Shown: positions 30,766 through 54,717 of the stretch, one piece after another
Layout of the letters: every line of letters starts with the position of its first letter
How positions within the stretch are numbered: position 1 is the first letter of the stretch
Assembly (NCBI GenBank): GCA_017450125.1
Contig: JAFSWZ010000013.1
Span: 1 to 64,000 of the forward strand
Source of the DNA: Synergistaceae bacterium
GTDB taxonomy: Bacteria; Synergistota; Synergistia; Synergistales; Aminobacteriaceae
Direction: 5' to 3'
Length of the DNA stretch: 64,000 nt
Notes under the pieces: model-generated
The model's input: only the letters and a program-made list of their open reading frames with translations
Database searches by the model: none
Told to the model about the DNA's origin: nothing
Position numbers and translations under genes: made by a program

Positions 30766-30843
30766 CGGGGCGTAGCGCAGTCTGGTTAGCGCACCTGCTT
30801 TGGGAGCAGGGGGTCGGAAGTTCGAATCTTCTCGCCCCGACCA
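30766..30843 (+). tRNA. tRNA-Pro (anticodon TGG)
   Basis: Acceptor CGGGGCG pairs with CGCCCCG; anticodon stem CCTGC/GCAGG around loop TTTGGGA; T-loop TTCGAAT; encoded CCA. Confidence 0.95.
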
Positions 30844-30871
30844 GAGTGAAGCTACGAAGAGTGAAGAACAT

Positions 30872-30948
30872 GCGGGAATAGCTCAGTTGGCTAGAGCGAT
30901 GGCCTTCCAAGCCGTAGGTCGCGGGTTCGAATCCCGTTTCCCGCTCCA
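30872..30948 (+). tRNA. tRNA-Gly (anticodon TCC)
   Basis: Acceptor GCGGGAA pairs with TTCCCGC; anticodon loop CTTCCAA; T-stem CGGGTTCGAATCCCG; encoded CCA. Confidence 0.95.
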
Positions 30949-30960
30949 AGCGTAAGATAC

Positions 30961-31037
30961 GCGCTCTTAGCTCAGCTGGATAGAGCAACGGCCTTCTAAG
31001 CCGTAGGCCGCGGGTTCGAATCCTGCAGGGCGCGCCA
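30961..31037 (+). tRNA. tRNA-Arg (anticodon TCT)
   Basis: Acceptor GCGCTCT pairs with AGGGCGC (one G-U); anticodon stem ACGGC/GCCGT with loop CTTCTAA; encoded CCA after the discriminator G. Confidence 0.95.
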
Positions 31038-31052
31038 GTAAGTTGACAACAT

Positions 31053-31130
31053 GGTGAGTGTAGCGCAATTGGTTAGAGCTTCGGATTGTGGTTCCGGCGG
31101 TTGAGGGTTCAAGTCCCTTCACTCACCCCA
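31053..31130 (+). tRNA. tRNA-His (anticodon GTG)
   Basis: Acceptor GTGAGTG pairs with CACTCAC, plus the extra 5' G (31053) opposite discriminator C that marks tRNA-His; anticodon loop TTGTGGT; encoded CCA. Confidence 0.95.
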
Positions 31131-31144
31131 TCAGCAAGAAAGAT

Positions 31145-31218
31145 GCGCTCTTAGCTCATTGGGATAGAGCGGCAGACTTCGGATCTGCAGGCGGCGGGTT
31201 CGAATCCTGCAGGGCGCG
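31145..31218 (+). tRNA. tRNA-Arg (anticodon TCG), CCA not encoded
   Basis: Acceptor GCGCTCT pairs with AGGGCGC; anticodon stem GCAGA/TCTGC with loop CTTCGGA. Downstream of the discriminator G the sequence is CAA, not CCA, so the 3' end must be added by nucleotidyltransferase, unlike its five neighbours. The acceptor and T-arm are identical to those of tRNA-Arg(TCT). Confidence 0.93.
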
Positions 31219-31231
31219 CAACGAGAATAAT

Positions 31232-31307
<76 letters not shown>

Positions 31308-31348: not shown

Positions 31349-31384
31349 AAGCCCCGTTTGAACAATCAGGCGGGGCTTGTTGTT
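31349..31384 (+). terminator. terminator of the tRNA cluster
   Basis: AAGCCCCG pairs with CGGGGCTT across a 14-base loop, followed by a T-rich tract (GTTGTT). Confidence 0.6.
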
Positions 31385-31405: not shown

Positions 31406-31448
31406 TGCTATAATTACAGGCATTCAGAAAACTTTTTCATTCAGGAGG
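31406..31448 (+). promoter_or_regulatory. extended -10 promoter and Shine-Dalgarno of the PIN-kinase gene
   Basis: TGC-TATAAT (31406-31414) is an extended -10 element. AGGAGG at 31443-31448 lies 17 bases before the first usable ATG at 31466, longer than normal spacing; no better in-frame start is seen closer. Confidence 0.5.
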
Positions 31449-31465
31449 TTATTCACCGCTCAATA

Positions 31466-33355
31466 ATGCAGAACAACATCTTTAGCACGCGCGACACACT
31501 CACCTTCATCGACACCTGCTCACTGCTCGAAGTCCCTGCCTCTGAGCTTTACCTCAAGAGCCTGAAGTCCTCAGGGGACAAGGTCATCGTCATCAGAGCC
31601 GTAACCAACGAGCTCCGCAAGAAGATACGCGAGCACGACAAAGACCCAGAACTCAGCGACAGGGCTCAGGCAGTCTTCAACCTCGTGTTCGACTACGAAG
31701 CAAAGGGTCTCGTGAAGATCGACTTTGACGACGACAGAGACACCAGAAACATTGCGGACAATGTCTTTCTAGGGATAGCATTCAGGTACGGCCTCAACAA
31801 CAACATAGTGATAATCACTCAGGACAAAGGGCTCACAGATGCCCTCCTGAACGCCAGGAACAACGGAGCTGTGAACGGCCTCAGCGTCGCGGTAAAGAGG
31901 CTGGAGAGCGACGGAACGCTTACGGAAATCACAGCACAGTATGCGAAACAAGATTCACACATGGAACGGAGTAAGACTTCAATGAACATGAACGCTTTAG
32001 AGATACCGCCCTCCCAGCTGGTTCAGCAGTTCAGGAACAACACAGAAGCCAGCAGCAAGGTCTACAAGAACCAGTGCCTGATGTTTTCCGGCAGGGTAGT
32101 GCGCACGTACGAGGACGGCAGGGACTTCATCACCGAGCTGCTTGCCGACGATTTCAACGGCAGGATAATATGCCGCTTCACGGGCAAGCCTATGGAGGCT
32201 GACGGCATGGAGCGCGGGCAGTCCGTAACGGTGTCCGGGCTTCTGGCGAACGTCGACGTTGATTTCGGCGAAATCGAGATGCAAGAGTGCTCTCTCGGCA
32301 GTGCCGCAAGCGCGTCTATTCCGCTTCAGGTTACGTCAGTTGCGGACGACCCTGTCCCCATCACGCAGATTCCCGAAGCGGGCTGCAAGGTCAAGGGGCT
32401 CGACGGCAAAGAGTACACTCTCTCTGCAATCATCGCCAGAGGCAGCAAGAGCGTGGTCTATGACATTGAGGGCAATCCCAAGATGGCGGCCAAGATCTAC
32501 AATCCCGAGTTCTGCACGGCACGCAGGCTCGAGAAGCTGAGGCTCATCATCAGCATGGGACTTCAGCATGACGGGATATGCTTCCCGACTGACGTTCTCC
32601 TCAACGAACGCGCGCAGTTCTGCGGATGCCTAATGCCCAGAGCAGAGGGCGGCAGCATCGAGGAACTCTTCTGCACAGCACCGGCCTTCGCGGAGAGGTT
32701 CAAGAAGTGGACTAAGACCGACATGGTCATGATGACCAAGCGCATCCTCGAATACATCAAATACATTCACGACAACGGCGTAATAATCGGCAACGTTGTG
32801 CCCGAGAACATAATCTACAACTCGACAGAAGAGATATACTTCATTGACGCGGACAGCTGGCAGTACAAGGAGTTTCCGTGCCCTGACGGAGACCCGTACT
32901 CGACACCGCCGGAGCTTCAGGGCAAGGACTTCAGCACGTTCCTGCGGACGATGGGCAATGAGAATTTCGGTGTTGCGACGCTGGTGTTCAGGATGATGAT
33001 GCAGGGTTACCCGCCTTACGCCAGCTTTGAGCGCGAGCTTCCCGAAGAGGAGATACGCGCGGGAAAGTTCCCGTACACTGTCGGGGAGTTCCGTGCGATA
33101 AAGGGCTACAAAGCTCCGTCAATGGAGGCACGGAAGATCTGGAGCCACCTTGTGCGGCAGATAAAGGACTCGTTCATCCAGGCGTTTCACGAGAACGGAG
33201 AGCACTCGCAGGAGGGGACGCGTTTCCCTGTTGAGCAGTGGATAAAGGATGTGGGGTACTACTACAGCTGCCTTCCGAAGATGATACGGACAGACCCTGT
33301 GAGCGAGGAAGTTTTCCCGAAGGAAGTACGGCGGGCACTCGACAAGAGGCAGTAA
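31466..33355 (+). CDS. PIN domain - OB fold - protein kinase-like fusion protein
   Basis: A 629-residue multidomain protein. Residues about 8-150 form a PIN-type nuclease domain: TFIDTCSLLEV with the first Asp, Glu in VTNELRKK, and NNIVIITQDKGLTDAL with the late acidic pair. Residues about 175-275 look like an OB fold (tRNA_anti-like: SGRVVRTYEDGRD, GRIICRFTGK, VTVSGLL). Residues about 290-600 are a divergent kinase domain related to the YegI/TerY-P-associated kinases: nucleotide loop and lysine in ARGSKSVVYD and MAAKIY, catalytic region IIGNVVPENIIYN, metal site IDADSW. The catalytic Asp of the HRD/GD motif is Asn here, so kinase activity is doubtful. The combination suggests a signal-controlled RNA-cleaving enzyme; that is inference. 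Confidence 0.75.
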   Translation: MQNNIFSTRDTLTFIDTCSLLEVPASELYLKSLKSSGDKVIVIRAVTNELRKKIREHDKDPELSDRAQAVFNLVFDYEAKGLVKIDFDDDRDTRNIADNVFLGIAFRYGLNNNIVIITQDKGLTDALLNARNNGAVNGLSVAVKRLESDGTLTEITAQYAKQDSHMERSKTSMNMNALEIPPSQLVQQFRNNTEASSKVYKNQCLMFSGRVVRTYEDGRDFITELLADDFNGRIICRFTGKPMEADGMERGQSVTVSGLLANVDVDFGEIEMQECSLGSAASASIPLQVTSVADDPVPITQIPEAGCKVKGLDGKEYTLSAIIARGSKSVVYDIEGNPKMAAKIYNPEFCTARRLEKLRLIISMGLQHDGICFPTDVLLNERAQFCGCLMPRAEGGSIEELFCTAPAFAERFKKWTKTDMVMMTKRILEYIKYIHDNGVIIGNVVPENIIYNSTEEIYFIDADSWQYKEFPCPDGDPYSTPPELQGKDFSTFLRTMGNENFGVATLVFRMMMQGYPPYASFERELPEEEIRAGKFPYTVGEFRAIKGYKAPSMEARKIWSHLVRQIKDSFIQAFHENGEHSQEGTRFPVEQWIKDVGYYYSCLPKMIRTDPVSEEVFPKEVRRALDKRQ

Positions 33356-33360
33356 AGACA

Positions 33361-33392
33361 ATCCCCCCACAGCACGCGGGGGGATAATTTTT
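33361..33392. terminator. terminator between the PIN-kinase gene and the rhamnose operon
   Basis: ATCCCCCC and GGGGGGAT form a stem around CACAGCACGC, followed on the plus strand by AATTTTT. The hairpin could also end the convergent rha transcript. Confidence 0.85.
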
Positions 33393-44945: not shown

Positions 44946-47660
44946 TTATGAGAACAGCTTTGACCACCAAGACTCATCACTGCCGCCGCCGGAACGAAGA
45001 AGAGAGATTATTTCGGTGTGTCCCTTCTGCTTGGCGATGTCCGCCGCAGTGTTGCCTCTGGTTGTGGTTGCGCTGGTGTCCGCTCCATTCCTGAGGAGGG
45101 CACGGACTGTGTCAGCGTGGCCGTTCTGCGCCGCCATGTGCAGAGGAGTCCAGTCGTCCTCTTCTGTGGCATTGACGCGTGCTCCGGCGTTGATGAGGAC
45201 GAGCACGGTTTCAGTGAAGCCGTCAATCGCTGACGTGTGGAGAGGTGTCCAGCCTTTGTTGTTCGGGGCATTTACGTCAGCACCGCGATTGGCGAGAATC
45301 CTGACAATCTCCGTGTGCCCCTTCGAGGCCGCCGCGTAGATAGGAGTCCAGCCGTCTTCTTCCTTGACGTTGAGGCTTGCCCCGTTGTCCAGCAGAACCA
45401 TCAGCGTCTCCTTGTTGTCGTTGTAGGCGGCGAGGTGAAGAGGAGTCCAGCCGTCAGCCTTTGGTGCGTTGACGCTTGCTCCGTGCCTCAGCAGAACCTT
45501 CACGATTTCAGTGTCCCCGTCCCGTGCCGCAACCTGAAGAACCGTCCATCCTTTGTCGTTCTTGGCATTGACGTTGGCACCGTCCCTCAGAGCCTGCTCG
45601 ACTTTCGAGGCGTTGCTGTTTCCGGCAAAGCAAAGCTCAACGAAATCCTCGTCGCTCATCGCACCGCTGCTCCTGCTGCTGCTTCCGCCGCTTCTGCCGG
45701 TGCTGCTGCCTCCGCTCCTGCTTCCTCCGCCTCCGATCGCACGTTTCAGCGCGTTCACGATCTCGGTGTTTCCCTTGTGCTGTGCAATGTCTACCGGAGT
45801 GTTGCCCTTCGTGGTCTTGGCCTGCGGGTCTCCGCCGTTGTCGAGAAGAACCCGTATCGCCTCAAGGTGTCCGTTCTGCGCGGCCAAGTGCATGGGTGTC
45901 CAGTTGTCCTTCTCCTTCGCGTCAACTTTCGCGCCTGCCCGAAGAAGTGCCCGCATCGTATCAGCATGACCGTTCTGCGCGGCGAGGTGAAGAGGAGTCC
46001 ACCTGTCTTCCTCGCGTGCGTCGAGGTTCGCACCGTTGCTGATGAGCAGCTCCACAGTGTCGGTGTGCCCGTCGCAGGATGCCGTGTGAAGCGGAGTCCA
46101 GCTCCTGTTGTTGCGGGAGTTGATGTTAGCTCCGTGCTCGAGGAGGGTTTTCACTATTGAGGTGTGTCCCTTCAGCGCGGCAACGTAGAGCGGAGTACTG
46201 CCCTTGTCGTCCCTGACATCGATTTCTGCTCCCTTGTCGAGGAGTGCCCCGAGAATTTCAGGGTTGTCGTTGTAGGCGGCGAGGTGAAGAGGAGTCCAGC
46301 CGTCCTCTTTCTGTGCGTTGACATCAGCACCGAACCTTATGAGCAGCTTGGCGATCTCGTTGTCTCCGTCCCTCGCGGCAACATGAAGGACAGGCCAGCC
46401 CTTGTCGTTCTTTGCGTTGGGGTTCGCGCCCTGCCTCAAGGCCTCTTCGACCTCATCAGCGTTGCTGTCGCCGATAAAGCACAGTTCCACGAAGTCGTCA
46501 TCCTTAGATGAACTGCTGCTGCTCGGATGCATCACCAACCCCTTGAGGAGGTCTACTACATCGTGATGACCGTTCTGCTTGGCGATGTCTATTGCTGTGT
46601 TGCCCTTAGACGTGCGAATGTTGAGGTCTGCCCCCGCATCAATGAGAGCCTGAACCGTGTCTATGTGCCCGTTCTGTGCCGCAAGAATAATCGCTGACCA
46701 GTGCTTGTCCTCTACGGCATCAACGTTTGCCCCGTTGTCGAGGAGAATCTGTACCGTCTCCGTGTAGCCGTCGCACGCAGAAGTGTGAAGAGGTGTCCAC
46801 TGGCGGTCGTTGCCAACGTTGACGTTTGCTCCGTGCTCGACGAGAATCCTCACGCTCTCAGTGTTGCCCTTCGAGGCAGCGGCGTATAACGGTGTCCACT
46901 CGTCCTCTTCTTTAGCCTCGATGTTTGCGCCGTGATCCAGAAGCATCTCCAGAATCTCCGTGTGGTCGTTGAACGCGGCCAAGTGCAGCGGTGTCCACCC
47001 GTCCTCTTTCTGGACGTTGACGTTCGCACCGTAGCGGAGGAGAAGCTCGACGACTTCTGTTGCGCCGGTCTTGCAGGCGAAGTGGAGGGGTGTCCAGCCT
47101 TCTTTGTCGGCAGCGTTGACGTTTGCTCCGGCGTTGATGGCATCCTCTATGTCCTCAGCATCACCCAGCTTGCACAGCTCTATGAACTTGTTGTCGCTCA
47201 TTGCTCCGGCTCGTCGCGCGGGAGTGCTCCTGCTTCCGCCGGACTGCACGGGAGGTTTCGGTGGGGTCGGCCTTGCAGGCGGTGTAGGCTTCGCTGACGG
47301 CTGAGTAACGTTGAGCCCGATGACGTTAGCTATCATGTACACGTACTTTTCCGCCATCTCGCGGCTGATGAAGTTGTCGGTGAGAGTTTGTATGCTCATG
47401 TTGATGCTCCTCATGCACTCGCTCTCCGGGCTTCCGGCCTGCTTGAGGGACACGAGGTTGCGCAGGATTCCTTCACGCTCCATCATTCGGAGTAGGTTAT
47501 ACTCTCCTTTGTGCGATGACTGGCTGAAGAAGTCAGGCAGAAGGTTCATGATGTCTTCTTTGCCGCCGTTAGTTCCTTGTCCCGCGAATATCTCTACACC
47601 GTATTCACCCACAAGATAACGCAATACACTTTCCAGATTATCCTTATCGTAATTAAGCAT
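44946..47660 (-). CDS. large ankyrin-repeat protein with three ankyrin blocks and a shared N-terminal helical domain
   Basis: A 904-residue protein without signal peptide. Residues 1-116 are a helical domain shared with the two other ankyrin proteins of the operon (LESVLRYLVGEYGVEI, IMNLLPDFF). A Pro/Lys linker (about 118-150) follows. Then three blocks of about 220-260 residues, each opening with an FIELC/FVELC-type helix and holding 6-7 ankyrin repeats of the WTPLHLAAxNGH type: about 154-376, 385-640 and 672-895, parted by a Ser-rich (about 377-384) and a Gly/Ser-rich linker (about 645-670). It probably binds client or partner proteins of the phosphorylation triad. The close likeness of the blocks points to recent internal duplication. 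Confidence 0.85.
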   Translation of the reverse strand: MLNYDKDNLESVLRYLVGEYGVEIFAGQGTNGGKEDIMNLLPDFFSQSSHKGEYNLLRMMEREGILRNLVSLKQAGSPESECMRSINMSIQTLTDNFISREMAEKYVYMIANVIGLNVTQPSAKPTPPARPTPPKPPVQSGGSRSTPARRAGAMSDNKFIELCKLGDAEDIEDAINAGANVNAADKEGWTPLHFACKTGATEVVELLLRYGANVNVQKEDGWTPLHLAAFNDHTEILEMLLDHGANIEAKEEDEWTPLYAAASKGNTESVRILVEHGANVNVGNDRQWTPLHTSACDGYTETVQILLDNGANVDAVEDKHWSAIILAAQNGHIDTVQALIDAGADLNIRTSKGNTAIDIAKQNGHHDVVDLLKGLVMHPSSSSSSKDDDFVELCFIGDSNADEVEEALRQGANPNAKNDKGWPVLHVAARDGDNEIAKLLIRFGADVNAQKEDGWTPLHLAAYNDNPEILGALLDKGAEIDVRDDKGSTPLYVAALKGHTSIVKTLLEHGANINSRNNRSWTPLHTASCDGHTDTVELLISNGANLDAREEDRWTPLHLAAQNGHADTMRALLRAGAKVDAKEKDNWTPMHLAAQNGHLEAIRVLLDNGGDPQAKTTKGNTPVDIAQHKGNTEIVNALKRAIGGGGSRSGGSSTGRSGGSSSRSSGAMSDEDFVELCFAGNSNASKVEQALRDGANVNAKNDKGWTVLQVAARDGDTEIVKVLLRHGASVNAPKADGWTPLHLAAYNDNKETLMVLLDNGASLNVKEEDGWTPIYAAASKGHTEIVRILANRGADVNAPNNKGWTPLHTSAIDGFTETVLVLINAGARVNATEEDDWTPLHMAAQNGHADTVRALLRNGADTSATTTRGNTAADIAKQKGHTEIISLLRSGGGSDESWWSKLFS

Positions 47661-47670
47661 GTAATGCCTC

Positions 47671-48462
47671 CTAAATCAATTTCGCTCCGCTGGTTCGGAG
47701 CAGTTCTGCAACTTCTCTGCTTCCACGTTCTGCCGCAAGACGCAGTGCCGTCCTGCCGTAATCATTCGTCGCGTTGGTATCAGCCCCGTACCGCAGGAGA
47801 ACTCTTGCCGTGCTGGCATGGTCGCTTCTCGCCGCCTCGTGCAGTGCTGTAGAGCCGTTCACGTTGCGTGCGTTGACATCAGCTCCGTAACGCAGGAGAA
47901 GTTCCGCCGTGTCAGACAGTCCCCTGTAGGCCGCCCAGTGCAGGGCAGTCCAGCCGTATTTGTCTTTCGCGTTAAGGTTTGCGCCGCGCCGTATAGCTCC
48001 CTCTATCTCCGCAGAACTCCCGCTCCAGCAGACCGACAGCAAGTCTGCTCCTCTTCTGGCCTGAGGCTTCGGGGCTGGGGCTGTCCGCACCTGTCGCGTT
48101 CCGCCGGAAGCACCGAGCCCGATAACTCGCGCAACCATCTGCACGTACTTCAACGATACGTCCTCAGGCAGGAAGATATCCGTCAGCTTGCGGATCTCTA
48201 CCTTCACCCTCCTGCGCAGCTCCTCGCCTGAACTCCCCGAGAGTTTCAGCGCAACAAGTCCCTTCAAGACACCTTCACGGTACATTGCGCCGAACATCGC
48301 CGAATCTCCCTTGTGGTTCACCGCGTTAAAGAAGTCAGGCAAGAGCCTCATGATGTCGGTCTTGCCCGCAATTCTGCCCTGTCCGGCGAGAATCTCTATC
48401 CCGTATTCGCCGACAAGATAACGCAGCACGCTCTCTAGGTTTTCCCTGTCAAAGCTGCTCAT
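47671..48462 (-). CDS. ankyrin-repeat protein, short form, with shared N-terminal helical domain
   Basis: A 263-residue protein. Residues 1-115 are the shared helical domain (LESVLRYLVGEYGIEI, IMRLLPDFF, YREGVLKGLVALK, LKYVQMVARVIGL). After a linker, about four ankyrin repeats (about 140-263: GANLNAKDKYGWTALHWAAYRG, GADVNARNVNGSTALHEAAR and on). It overlaps the PP2C gene by 14 bases, so the two are translated together. Cytosolic; a partner-binding role is inferred from the repeats. Confidence 0.85.
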   Translation of the reverse strand: MSSFDRENLESVLRYLVGEYGIEILAGQGRIAGKTDIMRLLPDFFNAVNHKGDSAMFGAMYREGVLKGLVALKLSGSSGEELRRRVKVEIRKLTDIFLPEDVSLKYVQMVARVIGLGASGGTRQVRTAPAPKPQARRGADLLSVCWSGSSAEIEGAIRRGANLNAKDKYGWTALHWAAYRGLSDTAELLLRYGADVNARNVNGSTALHEAARSDHASTARVLLRYGADTNATNDYGRTALRLAAERGSREVAELLRTSGAKLI

Positions 48463-49828
48463 TCACCGCATCCGCCGGAGCCTTAAGAGCCTCAATCTCC
48501 GCACGCGTCTTCTTCATCTCGCGGACTATTTCCTGATACGCCGCATCATACTTCTTGAACTCATACTCAGCTAAGAGTTTCTCACGTATTGCCTTCCTCC
48601 AGCTCTCTACGGAATGCCTGTACCCGGCTATCTCAACGTCCAGCGCACGTATCTCACCATCGAGCTTTCGCAGTTCATCGAGCACCTTCTTGTGGTTAGG
48701 ATGGCCGCGTAACTCCTCCTCAATCCCCCTGAGGTGCACAGCAAGTTTCTTGGCTTTGCGCTTCCGCATTACCGCGTCAATACATGCCATGTAGGCGGAG
48801 ATGAACTGATCGCATTTCGCCTCAGCTTCCTTCAGCTGTGCAGAAAGTGCCTCATGTTTCCTCTGCTTACTGGAGAGCGCAATCTCCAGCGTTATCAGCC
48901 TCTCCTCGAGGGAGTAGATCTCCGTCTCGCGCCCAAAAGCCGCAGTGAGCTCCTTCGCCGCCTCAAGGTCAACGATGCCCGCGACAGACACATCATCCCC
49001 GCTTCCGCCCGGCGAGTACAGACCCTTTGCGCTGAACTCCGAGAGGAATCGCTCCAGACCTTCAGTGCCTTGTTCGACGAGACGGCACGTCAGGTACTTG
49101 CTGAACGTGTGAACGCCCCCCATCAGGCTGTGTTCGCCGTCAATCGCCTCGTACGTGTCGCGGTAAGCATCTTCCACGCCGTCCGTGAACATGTAGCAGG
49201 CAGTAACGCTTCTGCTCCTCAGGTCAAGTGCGCAAGTCCTGAAGCTCTCGGCAGCGTCAACGTCGCACATTGAGGTCGTGATGTTGGCCTCGCAGCGTTC
49301 GTCCCAAGGGACTGGCTGGTCTGTGCTACCGTCGCTGTAGATGACTTCGCACCTGCCGTCGCCCTGATGAATCATCACGAGGCATGAAGGCAGCCTCAGT
49401 GCCGCAATAAGCGTCGTTCCGTAGGCGTGAAGCTTCTGTGATTCAGCGGCATATTCGGGAGGAAGCGGGTTCTTCTGGCAGTCCTTGAGGACGTTGTCGG
49501 CCCACAAAGCAGTTATCCTGTCCGTGAGTTGCCGCAGAACCGTCTTCTGTTCACGGAGAGCGGAAAATATGTCGTCGTAGAACTTCTGTTCCTTCTCCTC
49601 GCTCTCAAGGACGGCTTCCGCGAACTTCTGCAGGCACTCCAGAGCAGACGACACAGCCAGCTTTGAGCCCGTGCTGCTCCTGAAGCATGACTCCGCACCG
49701 TGCCCGTCAGCTACAGCGGCAATGAAGTACTTTCCGTCCGTGCTGGCGAAGTGGTCAGAGGCATCCTCGCACACGATCTTGCGTTTCTCGTGAAGGCTGC
49801 CTCTCACTGTTTCGCTGAATGTGAACAC
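48449..49828 (-). CDS. PP2C-type Ser/Thr phosphatase with C-terminal coiled coil (TerY-P triad)
   Basis: A 459-residue protein. The PP2C domain (about 1-275) shows metal-site motifs KRKIVCEDA, AAVADGHGAES, HAYGTTLIAAL, FTDGVED and SGDDVSVAGI. Residues about 290-450 are a charged heptad-like coiled coil (EERLITLEIALSSKQRKHEALSAQ and on) not found in plain PP2C enzymes. It should reverse phosphorylation by the kinase encoded at 50656. It starts 8 bases after the vWA gene and overlaps the short ankyrin gene. Confidence 0.9.
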   Translation of the reverse strand: MFTFSETVRGSLHEKRKIVCEDASDHFASTDGKYFIAAVADGHGAESCFRSSTGSKLAVSSALECLQKFAEAVLESEEKEQKFYDDIFSALREQKTVLRQLTDRITALWADNVLKDCQKNPLPPEYAAESQKLHAYGTTLIAALRLPSCLVMIHQGDGRCEVIYSDGSTDQPVPWDERCEANITTSMCDVDAAESFRTCALDLRSRSVTACYMFTDGVEDAYRDTYEAIDGEHSLMGGVHTFSKYLTCRLVEQGTEGLERFLSEFSAKGLYSPGGSGDDVSVAGIVDLEAAKELTAAFGRETEIYSLEERLITLEIALSSKQRKHEALSAQLKEAEAKCDQFISAYMACIDAVMRKRKAKKLAVHLRGIEEELRGHPNHKKVLDELRKLDGEIRALDVEIAGYRHSVESWRKAIREKLLAEYEFKKYDAAYQEIVREMKKTRAEIEALKAPADAVNEQL

Positions 49829-49836
49829 TTTTGCAC

Positions 49837-50631
49837 CTACCAGTCCTCAGGGTCTTCCCACTGTGCTCCGCCGCCGGTGTCCTGAGGTTCAGGATCGTAC
49901 GCGACCCCTGACGGCACTACGTCGGCCGGGATACCTTCGGCACTCTTTATCACGTCCGCGCCGGTTACTGTATTGTGAGTTGTCGCAGTCTGCGAGGCGA
50001 GCATTGAAGCCGTTACGGAGACGAACTTTATCAGCCGCGCAAACATGTCGAGGTCGCTGGTCTCGATAACGGACTCGATGTTGCCCACAACGGAAGCAAG
50101 CATACTCACTCCGGCTTCGCGCGTCGCAACGTCGTCGTCGTCGTTGTAGAGCTTGAAGCCTATCTTGGTGGCGCGCTTGAACCACTTGTTCTCGCGGATG
50201 TCGTGAAGTGCCTTAGTGTATTCATCGGTAGCGATTCCGTCGGTCATGAAGATTATCACGGGTATGAATGAGCCTGCCGCAGACTTCATGAACTTCTTGA
50301 CGGAGAGCTTGTCGTCAAGTTCACGCAGTGCCGCGCCTACTTCCGTGAGGCCGTAAGGGTGCTCGATGGGCGTGTAGTGGAAGTCCTCTTCGACGTACTC
50401 CGGGCCGTTGGAGGTCATCCAGCTCACGTCGCTGTCGAACCTCATCACTGCGACCTTCAGCTTCGCGTCGCTGTTGCTCTTGGCCACGTCTTTGAGGGCT
50501 TCGATGGTCTCTCCCATCGCCATATTAAGCTTGGCGATCTTTGCGCCCTCCATGCTCCCGGAGGAGTCGAGAATGTAGAAAATAGTTAAATCTCTGCGCG
50601 GAGCTTCTTCAAGAAATGACGTGCTGGGCAT
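49837..50631 (-). CDS. TerY-like von Willebrand factor A domain protein
   Basis: A 264-residue protein with a complete MIDAS: ILDSSGSMEG (DxSxS, about 20-29), Thr in GLTEVGAAL, and FMTDGIATDEY (about 126-136). This is the compact TerY form. The C-terminal 40 residues are acidic and Pro-rich, ending in EDPEDW. Together with the adjoining kinase and PP2C it makes the TerY-P triad known from comparative genomics of tellurite-resistance-linked phospho-signalling. It presumably is a metal-dependent adaptor for the kinase or its target. Located in the cytosol. Confidence 0.9.
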   Translation of the reverse strand: MPSTSFLEEAPRRDLTIFYILDSSGSMEGAKIAKLNMAMGETIEALKDVAKSNSDAKLKVAVMRFDSDVSWMTSNGPEYVEEDFHYTPIEHPYGLTEVGAALRELDDKLSVKKFMKSAAGSFIPVIIFMTDGIATDEYTKALHDIRENKWFKRATKIGFKLYNDDDDVATREAGVSMLASVVGNIESVIETSDLDMFARLIKFVSVTASMLASQTATTHNTVTGADVIKSAEGIPADVVPSGVAYDPEPQDTGGGAQWEDPEDW

Positions 50632-50655
50632 AAAAACTTTCTCCTTTCGAATTTG

Positions 50656-51957
50656 TCAGTTAGCCTTTATCGCTATCGGTGCTTTAAAGGCGGTGAATGT
50701 TATTCCGTCCTTCAGCGGGATAACGCCGTCGGGCTGGACTTCTTTTGCCGCACCCTTAGAGGTTACTGCGTCCCAAGATTTGCTGGTCATGTTCCTGAGA
50801 CCCAGAGCGGAAGGATTGTCTTTCCTCGCTATTATAGCGGTAATTGGCGATAATGCTTCCTGTTCATGACAGACCCCGAGCTGACATCTGTAGACCCTCG
50901 TGCCCCTCACTGCCGGAATGCTGTACCCCGAGAGCTCGAGCCTGAAGGGTATATCCGCCATCTTTCTGCACGAATCGCACTCGCACGGCCTGCCCTGCTG
51001 CGTGAAAATCTCGTTTCCGCACGAGCACAGGACTATGTCGCTCCTGAAGCGCGTTAATGCTTTGAGCCACTCTATCTCTTTCGGTCTTGCGGCCGGATCG
51101 CGGAATGCTTCCTCAGAGAACGCGGCGGTGAAGATTTCCTTCATGTAGTCCGGGAGGCACGGCCATACTGCGAGGGAGTTGCGGTTAAGCCTGCGGTGAG
51201 GCGCGTTGCTGGTGTTCTCAGAGTTCCACATGAAGAGAGGGTCTGAGCCGTAGAACTTCTCCTGAATCTCCGGCGTGAGGCAGGGGACGGAAAAATGCCG
51301 CTTGCCTTCGAGCGGGTGGTCAAGGCAGAACAGTATGTAGAGTATCAGGGACATCGAGAACCTGTCGCTCAAGTTGTTGGGCTTGCGTTCGCGCAGGACT
51401 ATTTCTGGTGCGATGTAGCGGGGCTTGCCCATTATGCCGGTCTCTTTGCCGTCGGGAGCTATGTTGTCGCAGTCGCAGATGAGTACGTCGCCGGTGTCGG
51501 GGTTGATGAAGAAGTTGCCGTCGTTGAGGTCCTGATAGCTGTAGCCTGCGTTGTGCAGAATCCTGAATGCCGAGACGATGTGAAGCGCGGCATCCACGAC
51601 TCTCTTGTAGGACTTGAAACGCTGCTTGCAGAGCATGAAGTCAGTAATTTCGTAGTAGTTCGCGGGTTTTAGGGGCATGATGTAGCCGAATGTTCCGTCG
51701 TGCCACTCTGTGATGTCGACCGGCCACAGAAATTCGTCGCTCGGTGCACCCTTCTTGACGTTGTGAAGGATGTTGTCGTAGAAGGCTGTGGGGTTGTCGC
51801 CCAAGCGTCCCTTCTTGTACCACTTGAGGGCTTTCTTCTCGCCGTTGAAGGTTACGAGGTAGACTTCACCTTCGCCGCCTTCAGCTAGGAACTTGTCGAT
51901 TGTTACTGTGCCGCCTAAGTTTGTCTTGATGGAGAAACCTTGATTGAGATTGCTCAT
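50656..51957 (-). CDS. Ser/Thr protein kinase with C-terminal zinc ribbon (TerY-P triad)
   Basis: A 433-residue protein. The kinase domain (about 20-300) has the glycine loop AEGGEGEVYLV, invariant Lys in KKALKWYKK, catalytic YQDLNDGNFF (HRD replaced by QDL but with the Asp kept, and Asn present), metal site CDCDN (for DFG), and APEI. C-terminally there is a zinc ribbon with CSCGN and CECDSC (about 320-340) and a small beta domain. This is the TerY-P-linked kinase layout. The ATG at 51957 is preferred, with AAGGAAGG upstream. It starts 31 bases after the ankyrin gene. Confidence 0.9.
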   Translation of the reverse strand: MSNLNQGFSIKTNLGGTVTIDKFLAEGGEGEVYLVTFNGEKKALKWYKKGRLGDNPTAFYDNILHNVKKGAPSDEFLWPVDITEWHDGTFGYIMPLKPANYYEITDFMLCKQRFKSYKRVVDAALHIVSAFRILHNAGYSYQDLNDGNFFINPDTGDVLICDCDNIAPDGKETGIMGKPRYIAPEIVLRERKPNNLSDRFSMSLILYILFCLDHPLEGKRHFSVPCLTPEIQEKFYGSDPLFMWNSENTSNAPHRRLNRNSLAVWPCLPDYMKEIFTAAFSEEAFRDPAARPKEIEWLKALTRFRSDIVLCSCGNEIFTQQGRPCECDSCRKMADIPFRLELSGYSIPAVRGTRVYRCQLGVCHEQEALSPITAIIARKDNPSALGLRNMTSKSWDAVTSKGAAKEVQPDGVIPLKDGITFTAFKAPIAIKAN

Positions 51958-51988
51958 GTTCTGCTGATGCACCTTCCTTTGTGTGTGA

Positions 51989-52831
51989 TTAACATCTCTG
52001 TTTTGCGTGAGTGTATCTTGCGCCGTAAGCACGGAGGAGTCTTGCTATAGCGGAATATCCTTTGCGTTCCGCATCATATAAAGCTGTCCGGCCGGTCCAA
52101 TCCACAGCGTTGACATCTGCGCCGTGCCTCAGGAGAAATTCTGCTGCGTCTTCGCGCCCGTATTGTGCGGCTTCATGTAAAGCCGTCCGGCCGTACTCGT
52201 TCTTAGCATTTATGTCAGCACCATACTGTAAGAGCACTTCTGCTGCGTCCAAGCGGCCGAGAGCTACCGTATGCATTAAAGCCGTCCAGTCGCCTCGATA
52301 CTTAGCGTTGACGTTAGCACCATTCCTCAGAGCCTCTTCAACCGCTCCAGCATCGCCCCTTCCGCAAAGGGCTATGAACTCCTCGTCATCCATCGCCGGA
52401 CGTGTCGACTTGAACCTCTGCACGGGCTGTCTCACCTGCTGAACAACAGGTGGTGTAGGGGTGCTCTTCACAGGCGCGGGAAGACGAAGCCCAATCACCC
52501 CCGCCACCATGTGCACATACTTCATCGCTACGTCCTCAGGAATGAACAGCTCCGTCAGCTTCGTAACCTCCAAGCGTACCTTCCTCTGACATTCAGACTT
52601 ATCTGCTCCAGACTGCTTCAGTGCAACTAGAGCCTTCATTACGCCCTCATTGGCCATAATCTTGATGACGTGATACTCCTGCTTGTGCGATGCGGTGCTG
52701 TAGAAATCAGGGAGAAGGTTCATTATGTTTTCCTTGCCCCCGATTCTCCCATTGCCGGAGAAAATTTCCGCGCCGTACTCTCCGGCAAGATACCTCAACA
52801 CGCTCTCGAGGTCGTCCCTGTCGTAATTCAT
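51989..52831 (-). CDS. ankyrin-repeat protein coupled to the ABC permease gene, with shared N-terminal helical domain
   Basis: A 280-residue protein. Residues 1-115 are the shared domain (LESVLRYLAGEYGAEI, IMNLLPDFY, NEGVMKALVALK, MKYVHMVAGVIGL); then a Pro-rich linker and about four ankyrin repeats (about 145-280: FIALCGRGDAGAVEEALRNG, GADINAKNEYGRTALHEAAQYG). Its ATG (52831-52829) overlaps the permease stop (52830-52828) as ATGA. This ties the signalling genes to the transporter in one unit. Longer readings lie inside the permease gene. Confidence 0.88.
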   Translation of the reverse strand: MNYDRDDLESVLRYLAGEYGAEIFSGNGRIGGKENIMNLLPDFYSTASHKQEYHVIKIMANEGVMKALVALKQSGADKSECQRKVRLEVTKLTELFIPEDVAMKYVHMVAGVIGLRLPAPVKSTPTPPVVQQVRQPVQRFKSTRPAMDDEEFIALCGRGDAGAVEEALRNGANVNAKYRGDWTALMHTVALGRLDAAEVLLQYGADINAKNEYGRTALHEAAQYGREDAAEFLLRHGADVNAVDWTGRTALYDAERKGYSAIARLLRAYGARYTHAKQRC

Positions 52832-54717
52832 TGTCCGCCTCCTTTGCCGGTCAGCCGTGCCCAACGCTTCCGCCACTTCTTCCGAGCCTCCAGCCTCTCG
52901 CCCAAGTCCCGCGCTCCTACTCCGTACACCAAGTACAGGATAATTCCCGACACAACCATAATGAACACAGTAGACGCACACCGTCTGCCCGAAGCGTTGA
53001 TGTTGTAGCCCTCTCTGCCTTCCTCCATCGTCATGTTCTGGATTATCATCGCGTAGGTCTTGCCGTAAGACGACTGGAACGTCGCCCCCATGTCGTACTC
53101 AGTGAACAGTGCGTTGAAGTTCAGCGCGAAGACAGCAAGAACACTCGGGAGGATTATGGGGAGCTTGACCTTCAGGAAAGTATACACCGGCGAAGCTCCG
53201 AGATTCTTGGCCGCATCCTCGAGCTCGTCGTCGATAGCGTAGAACGCCGCCTTAATCATCCTCAGAGCAAACGGCAGCTTCGTAACCGTGTACGCCATGA
53301 CGATAAGGAAGCGTACATTCTCGCGCCAGTAGAGATTCTGCCCGAACACGTACCACACTTCACGGTTGAAGAATATCCTGAAGGAGTAGCAGATTAGGAT
53401 TGTGGGCAGAAGCCAAGGGAACAGCAGACAGCTTTCAGTAACGAGAGCGCGCATCTTGTTGCGATGACGGAAAATGTACGACACGGCCAAGACCACGATT
53501 ACGCACGCCAACGCCGCCGCGACCGCCGACATCACGAACGACAGCCGGATACCCCCTACAGCGTCTGCGTTCGAGAACACGCCGGAGATTGAGCCGATTC
53601 GTGTGCGGAGCCTTCCGCGCGAGGTCATGTACTCGTAGTTCTGAGTGCCGAAGTAGTTGACCAGCGTCCAGTCCGTGAAGTTGAGCATCTTGCTCCGTAT
53701 TGCGGGGTAATTCTGGAAGGAGAACAGCACAATCATCACAACAGGGGTCATGTAGATGATGAACAGGACGTAAGCGTAGATGTGTGCGATTGCGTTCCAC
53801 AAGGGAGAAGCTATCTTCTGCTTGACGAGCTTTGCCTTCGTCTTCGACACAGAGAGGTAATGACCTTTGCGCTCGTAATGGTTAAGGACGCTGAGAAGAA
53901 TGACCGTGAACATCGCCAGAATCACGCTGAGGAGTGCCGCCCTCGCCTGAGGGAATGCCTCATCAGCCGAGCTTGAACCTGCGAGCCTGACAATTTCAGG
54001 GTTGATTGAGTTGTAGCCTAAGAGCGTAGGTGCGGACATTGCGCACAAGCCGGTGATGAACGTCATAACGGTAAGCGAGAACAGAGTCGGCAGGAGCGTG
54101 GGCATCACGACGCTGAAGAGTACGCGGAAGGGGCTTGCTCCGAGATTGCGGGCTGCCTCGACAGTGTTGTAGTCTATCCCGCGAATGGCATTGCGGAGGA
54201 ACAGCGCATGATTCGACGTGCAGGCAAAAGTCATCGTGAACAGCACGGCGTTGAACCCCGAGAACCACTGACGGTTCATCATCGGGAACATCTGCGCGAG
54301 CCATGTGGTCATCATTCCGTTGCTGTCGTAGAGGAACTGATACCCCGTAACCAGAGCCACGCCAGAGTAGATTAATGTGGTCATGTAGCCCATCCGCAGA
54401 ATACTTGCTCCCTTGATGTCGAAGTACTCGGTGAGGAGCACAATGCTTATCCCGACGACATTAACCGTGAAGACGAGGCACACGGCGAGCTTGAGGGAGT
54501 TCCAGACGAAGAGGGGCATAGTCCCTGCCATGAAGAACTTAATCACGGCGAGAGGGTCAATGTTGCCCTGCGCGTTCTTGGTGGTGAAGATTGATGTTAA
54601 TGTGTTGAGGCAAGGAAGCACCATGAAGCCGAGAAACAGATACAGGAACAGCACCAGCCCGAAGAGCTTAGCGACGAATCCAGCGTCGAAAGAGTTAGTT
54701 TTCTGCATGACTATCAC
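52828..54717 (-). CDS. two-domain ABC transporter permease (FbpB/PotBC type)
   Basis: A 629-residue inner-membrane protein with about 12 predicted helices in two fused permease halves. Each half has the EAA-type cytoplasmic loop that contacts the ATPase: EAARNLGASPFRVLFSV (about 188-204) and DAAKNLGASPVYTFLKV (about 515-531). Fused permeases of this class import iron(III), thiamine, phosphonates or polyamines; the substrate cannot be told. No substrate-binding protein gene is found in the unit. It overlaps the ATPase gene and the ankyrin gene by ATGA on both sides. Confidence 0.9.
   Translation of the reverse strand: MIVMQKTNSFDAGFVAKLFGLVLFLYLFLGFMVLPCLNTLTSIFTTKNAQGNIDPLAVIKFFMAGTMPLFVWNSLKLAVCLVFTVNVVGISIVLLTEYFDIKGASILRMGYMTTLIYSGVALVTGYQFLYDSNGMMTTWLAQMFPMMNRQWFSGFNAVLFTMTFACTSNHALFLRNAIRGIDYNTVEAARNLGASPFRVLFSVVMPTLLPTLFSLTVMTFITGLCAMSAPTLLGYNSINPEIVRLAGSSSADEAFPQARAALLSVILAMFTVILLSVLNHYERKGHYLSVSKTKAKLVKQKIASPLWNAIAHIYAYVLFIIYMTPVVMIVLFSFQNYPAIRSKMLNFTDWTLVNYFGTQNYEYMTSRGRLRTRIGSISGVFSNADAVGGIRLSFVMSAVAAALACVIVVLAVSYIFRHRNKMRALVTESCLLFPWLLPTILICYSFRIFFNREVWYVFGQNLYWRENVRFLIVMAYTVTKLPFALRMIKAAFYAIDDELEDAAKNLGASPVYTFLKVKLPIILPSVLAVFALNFNALFTEYDMGATFQSSYGKTYAMIIQNMTMEEGREGYNINASGRRCASTVFIMVVSGIILYLVYGVGARDLGERLEARKKWRKRWARLTGKGGGQ

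Follow-up and report, generated by a model that had tools for sequence, protein, structure and literature searches.

The locus raises the question of what a gut bacterium may do with a single protein that joins a PIN-type domain, an OB fold and a kinase-like domain. The gene lies in the window, as we call here the whole 64,000-nucleotide stretch of DNA that was analysed. Our preferred reading, to which we give a probability of roughly 0.55, is that the protein stands alone, derives from a PIN-TerY-P system whose kinase has become a pseudokinase, and works as a conditional growth-arrest or defence RNase.

Gene setting and the tRNA neighbourhood

Judged from its flanking sequence, the gene looks monocistronic, as one hairpin stands before it and another after it (Table 1). 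The original prediction placed it after six tRNA genes and under an extended -10 promoter of its own. The tRNA cluster was indeed found at 30766-31307, and the promoter-like element TGCTATAAT is conserved in the three orthologues, that is, the window gene and those of genomes G005 and G061. The distance from TGCTATAAT to the ATG is 51 nt in the window and 63 and 56 nt in the other two, and the spacing between AGGAGG and ATG is 17, 17 and 18 nt.

Table 1. Features of the PIN-pseudokinase locus and of the second triad in the window.
Feature	Position	Strand	Basis or remark
Six tRNA genes	30766-31307		Upstream of the PIN-OB-pseudokinase ORF
Terminator-like hairpin	31349..31378	+	Hairpin search; closes the tRNA cluster, 5' of the promoter-like element
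Extended -10 promoter-like element TGCTATAAT	31406..31414	+	Kept in all three orthologues
AGGAGG, ribosome-binding-like	31443..31448	+	Long spacing to ATG kept among orthologues
PIN-OB-pseudokinase protein, 629 aa	31466..33355	+	ORF call, orthologues, structure model
PIN domain, aa 1-156	31466..31933	+	Homologue PIN_4 matches, model and Foldseek, column conservation
PIN acidic residue D16	31511-31513	+	Column conservation
PIN acidic residue E49	31610-31612	+	Column conservation
PIN acidic residue D98	31757-31759	+	Column conservation
PIN acidic residue D120	31823-31825	+	Column conservation
OB fold, about aa 177-277, tRNA_anti-like (PF12869)	31994..32296	+	Pfam; beta strands in model
TerY-P-type kinase fold, aa 308-623, predicted inactive	32387..33334	+	Alignment, model, fold matches
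K343, retained	32492-32494	+	Kinase alignment
N443, at the HRD-Asp position	32792-32794	+	Kinase alignment
DFG-Asp D461, retained	32846-32848	+	Kinase alignment
Hairpin 3' of the stop codon, then AATTTTTG on the + strand	33361..33385	.	Likely terminator
Second triad: PP2C	48449-49828	-	
Second triad: VWA	49837-50631	-	
Second triad: kinase with catalytic Asp	50656-52032	-	
Ankyrin-repeat proteins flanking the second triad	51989-52981, 47671-48462, 44946-47660	-	

The tRNA neighbourhood had been suspected to be chance, and this suspicion was well placed. A tRNA-directed enzyme linked to the cluster would be in keeping with the six adjacent tRNA genes and with the name of the OB family, tRNA_anti-like, and PIN toxins such as some VapCs do cut tRNA. 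However, no tRNA genes are found at the G005 and G061 loci, for which reason the link was rejected, and a terminator-like hairpin separates the cluster from the gene; we regard an enzyme of this kind as very unlikely. Cleavage of tRNA in trans by the protein is possible. A stand-alone VapC-like PIN protein is encoded immediately upstream of the G005 orthologue (L011:4850-5254, minus strand).

What the three loci have in common is a mutarotase gene and a sugar ABC operon, downstream on the opposite strand. The PIN-pseudokinase gene is accessory, being present in 3 of 43 genomes of the genus (the window's, G005 and G061), and the sugar-binding protein gene occurs in 18 of the 43. At least seven of the genomes with this gene also have the mutarotase close by, yet lack a PIN-kinase gene within the roughly 0.5-1.2 kb of sequence covered beyond it. 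The accessory nature of the gene and its setting beside a sugar operon, and not in a defence island, count against the preferred reading.

A candidate nuclease joined to a probable pseudokinase

The predicted union of PIN, OB fold and kinase in one protein was borne out by domain search and structure prediction: Pfam recognises the OB fold, homologues match PIN_4, and AlphaFold2 models recover the PIN and kinase folds. The PIN of the window protein itself lies below Pfam detection, and homologous PINs of the same genus match PIN_4 (PF13638) above the cut-off, the best at 1e-6. As a PIN profile gave only insignificant matches against PDB sequences, the domain was tested by its fold instead, and a model built with 44 homologous PINs (pLDDT 90.5) matches the PIN structures AF0591, SMG6, SMG5 and MJ1533. 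The PIN of SMG6 has RNase activity. Two features on which the original prediction depended were found as expected: the acidic residues D16, E49, D98 and D120 are all present and conserved in relatives, their columns being D, E, D and D in 59, 57, 56 and 59 of 60 PIN-kinase chains, and both full-length orthologues retain the PIN. The domain is a candidate nuclease and probably cuts RNA.

The OB fold passes the Pfam gathering cut-off (25.4 vs 23.5 bits). It could bind DNA instead, which is a point against the preferred reading. In another reading, the PIN is a DNA nuclease of the flap or restriction type that serves anti-phage defence. TerY-P systems have been tied to DNA processing and restriction (PMC11090510, PMC4978471) and two related loci adjoin type III CRISPR genes, but the closest structural matches of the PIN include RNA-cutting ones such as SMG6, and we hold a DNA nuclease to be highly improbable. 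Probable secreted proteins with a tRNA_anti-like OB fold also recur in the genus, for example at L015:6576-7598 in G007, apparently with no link to the kinase.

The relation of the kinase domain to TerY-P kinases was likewise confirmed, by shared family motifs and fold. Its Pkinase match is significant (1.3e-4) yet under the Pfam cut-off (21.9 vs 31.7 bits), which several TerY-P-type homologues exceed; the full-length model (pLDDT 83.9; pTM 0.56, so its interdomain arrangement is uncertain) finds its fold matches among protein kinases, at 1e-10 to 1e-11. Of the 102 rows in the kinase alignment, 98 have a residue at the HRD-Asp position (both counts include duplicates); this residue is Asp in 86 of them, and the three fused orthologues have Asn. 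The GGEG glycine loop has become GSKS, GRKS or GRRS in these three, the window sequence reading ARGSKS. The DFG Asp is kept in two of the three and lost in G061. K343 is retained in all, and the Asn of the HRD loop is also kept. Replacement of the HRD Asp by Asn usually, though not always, abolishes phosphotransfer. Because the window protein and both orthologues carry this replacement together with a degenerate glycine loop, the kinase domain is, from its residues, probably catalytically dead; nucleotide binding without phosphotransfer is possible, given K343 in all three and the DFG Asp in two. Of the two suggested forms of control over RNA cleavage, control by nucleotide binding is possible, whereas control by the protein's own phosphorylation is unsupported, with the HRD Asn in 3/3, the altered glycine loop and one DFG Asp lost.

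The two full-length orthologues share 69% and 59% identity with the window protein. Purifying selection acts on every folded domain, with Ka/Ks of about 0.09-0.22 overall (0.10-0.19 for the kinase part, 0.15-0.17 for the PIN and 0.13-0.22 for the OB fold where computable), values that are rough since Ks is near or at saturation. As the kinase domain is still under such selection, it is a maintained pseudokinase and not a product of decay. A functionless remnant of a TerY-P module would agree with the lost partners, the lost catalytic residue and the patchy distribution, but scarcely with these Ka/Ks values, with reading frames intact in three species, or with a conserved promoter-like element and intact PIN residues; we consider it the least probable of all readings, and the idea of a pseudogene was rejected by Ka/Ks.

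The opposite possibility is that N443 does not stop the kinase from phosphorylating itself or a partner, the protein being an ordinary kinase-controlled RNase. The kept K343, DFG Asp (2/3) and HRD-loop Asn and the strong selection speak for it. The HRD replacement in all orthologues, the altered glycine loop, the DFG loss in G061, a genome with no PP2C_2 partner, and the long stem branch of the trio all speak against it, and it appears quite unlikely. In a quick tree, the fused trio forms one clade (100% SH-aLRT) on that long stem branch, the nearest rows by path length being G010 and G004. A second clade of PIN-pseudokinases comprises four Bacillaceae with Ser or Asn at the HRD-Asp position, which adjoin an intact PIN-kinase/VWA/PP2C set; the HRD Asp was therefore probably lost at least twice among PIN-kinases. 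In four Bacillaceae, second PIN-kinase-like genes, with HRD and DFG residues lost and a VWA of their own, are found 3' of the intact module, at L123:11163-12953, L127:11442-13223, L132:11143-12918 and L135:11496-13283.

Related modules and missing partners

A scan of genome contigs with the window protein alone gave no match, and an alignment-based scan was needed. With the kinase alignment and one genome per species, at least 79 loci were recovered. Outside the window's genus, the PIN lies inside the kinase ORF in 48 of 75 listed loci and in a separate gene in 4 more, fractions that are not prevalences, the sample having been picked by kinase motifs. Among the matches listed, 46 of the 48 PIN-kinase ORFs have VWA and PP2C in the locus, usually adjacent (median gaps, 24 nt from kinase to VWA and 22 nt for PP2C), and the hosts of kinase loci include Bacillota, Spirochaetota, Campylobacterota, Pseudomonadota, Planctomycetota and Saccharimonadota. 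One case is on a plasmid, in Paenarthrobacter, where the protein (WP_316963961.1) is annotated as 'PIN domain-containing protein' and accompanied by VWA and PP2C. The search for the same fusion in other genomes, as proposed originally, thus found a PIN-kinase fusion in many phyla; the fusion is no curiosity and belongs to a widespread bacterial module of putative stress or defence function.

Within the window's own genus, four species (genomes G004, G010, G008 and G063) carry the parts as separate genes of one cluster, made up of VWA, an HTH/PIN-like gene, PIN, kinase and PP2C, with the OB fold on the kinase gene in G004 and G010. These clusters are a TerY-P triad (VWA, PP2C, kinase) plus PIN genes. 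In genomes G119 and G121 of family f3, the PIN is directly fused to a kinase with zinc ribbons; VWA and PP2C adjoin this gene, and type III CRISPR genes lie close to it. At L074:1-7361 and L075:832-8000 a PIN-kinase/VWA/PP2C module adjoins type III CRISPR genes of the Cmr type and a small conserved gene of 138-140 aa. Many modules are accompanied by a gene for an HTH and a degenerate PIN-like domain whose acidic residues are mostly lost (L013:9689-10474, L012:9704-10534, L014:4869-5927); its product may be a partner that the PIN has in these modules, itself inactive.

The partners are missing around the window gene. No TerY-like VWA lies beside it, and the sole match to the genus VWA model in its own genome (50218-50592) belongs to another triad; the genus PP2C model has no match in that genome, the nearest PP2C being the one at 48449-49828. 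A paralogue search of the same genome found none, nor a second kinase of the PIN-kinase group. PP2C_2 has no match anywhere in G061 (99% complete), so the PIN-pseudokinase protein can be maintained in a genome that offers it no phosphatase of this kind. The protein might instead be a regulated effector acting in trans for another phospho-module, such as the triad at 48449-52032. This triad is complete, has the catalytic Asp and lies about 15 kb away, and TerY-P modules are commonly associated with effectors (PMC11090510). But it represents another, distant subfamily, and G061 has the same protein with no PP2C_2 match; we find an effector of this type unlikely, and action in trans with the second triad, though possible, is not needed in G061. 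The ankyrin-repeat proteins around the triad (region 44946-52981, minus strand) share a common N-terminal domain.

A possible conditional ribonuclease and its known counterparts

The PIN-pseudokinase protein may have arisen by fusion of the neighbouring PIN nuclease and OB-kinase parts of a TerY-P-type phospho-signalling module, of which the VWA, PP2C and second PIN-like genes would have been dropped. In full modules, kinase and PP2C would set a phosphorylation state by which the PIN nuclease is activated when the cell is stressed or attacked by phage. The window pseudokinase may instead serve as an allosteric or docking module that binds a nucleotide or a partner and gates the PIN, the OB fold would hold or position nucleic acid and so aim it, and the PIN would cut RNA, making the protein a conditional growth-arrest or defence RNase. 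Defence would be its leading role, since experiments have shown that TerY-P modules protect against phages (PMC7699616, PMC10889362; also PMC11090510).

The TerY-P triad of Anantharaman, Iyer and Aravind (2012), as described in PMC11090510, consists of a VWA protein, a PP2C and a kinase. The window kinase is of the same type, with its G-[DN]-x-x-x-x-N loop and D-x-D-S-[YW]-Q motif, and related genes of the genus have VWA and PP2C genes beside them; unlike the triad, the window gene has no VWA or PP2C nearby, its kinase lacks the catalytic Asp and has no C-terminal zinc ribbon, and a PIN is added at the N-terminus. PMC11090510 credits Gao et al. (2020) with a TerY-P-like antiphage module that contains an OB-kinase fusion; the window protein too joins an OB fold to its kinase, but on the N-terminal side, with the PIN added and the partners missing. 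The PIN-kinase/VWA/PP2C modules of Treponema putidum (L095), Bacillus timonensis (L127) and WP_316963961.1 likewise place the PIN N-terminal to a TerY-P-type kinase. They differ in that their catalytic Asp is intact and VWA and PP2C genes still adjoin them, and no OB fold of the window type was detected in such chains. In the literature searched, which left the founding 2012 TerY-P paper outside, no description of a PIN-TerY-P fusion was found.

Membership of a known anti-phage system in PADLOC was rejected; no PADLOC model covers most of the chain, and weak matches to the kinase stretch (best 1.5e-4) are the only ones. Among eukaryotes, Ire1 and RNase L are fusions of a kinase or pseudokinase with an RNase, the pseudokinase being that of RNase L. 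The window nuclease is also coupled to a kinase-like domain, but it is a PIN and theirs is a KEN nuclease, with no homology of nuclease or of architecture order. We tentatively suggest, as a reading that falls short of even odds, that bacteria have here an equivalent of RNase L built on a PIN domain, a pseudokinase-gated ribonuclease derived from a kinase-phosphatase-VWA switch stripped to one protein.

PIN-TerY-P fusions across many phyla suggest what the phospho-switch may target, namely a nuclease fused to the kinase. In the window protein this candidate nuclease is retained although the kinase is probably dead and the partners are gone. The protein thus allows a direct test of whether the kinase fold has a regulatory role, and it offers a prokaryotic comparison for regulation of the Ire1/RNase L type.

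The defence context of PIN-kinase loci is only suggestive, as their neighbours are mixed: some are MADS, CARF-HEPN or restriction genes, others DnaJ/TPR and many housekeeping genes. Kinase relatives were found on 45 viral contigs, mostly weak and distant, with one weak match in a phage. DnaJ (6/102) and TPR proteins recur next to PIN-kinase modules (alignment A11).
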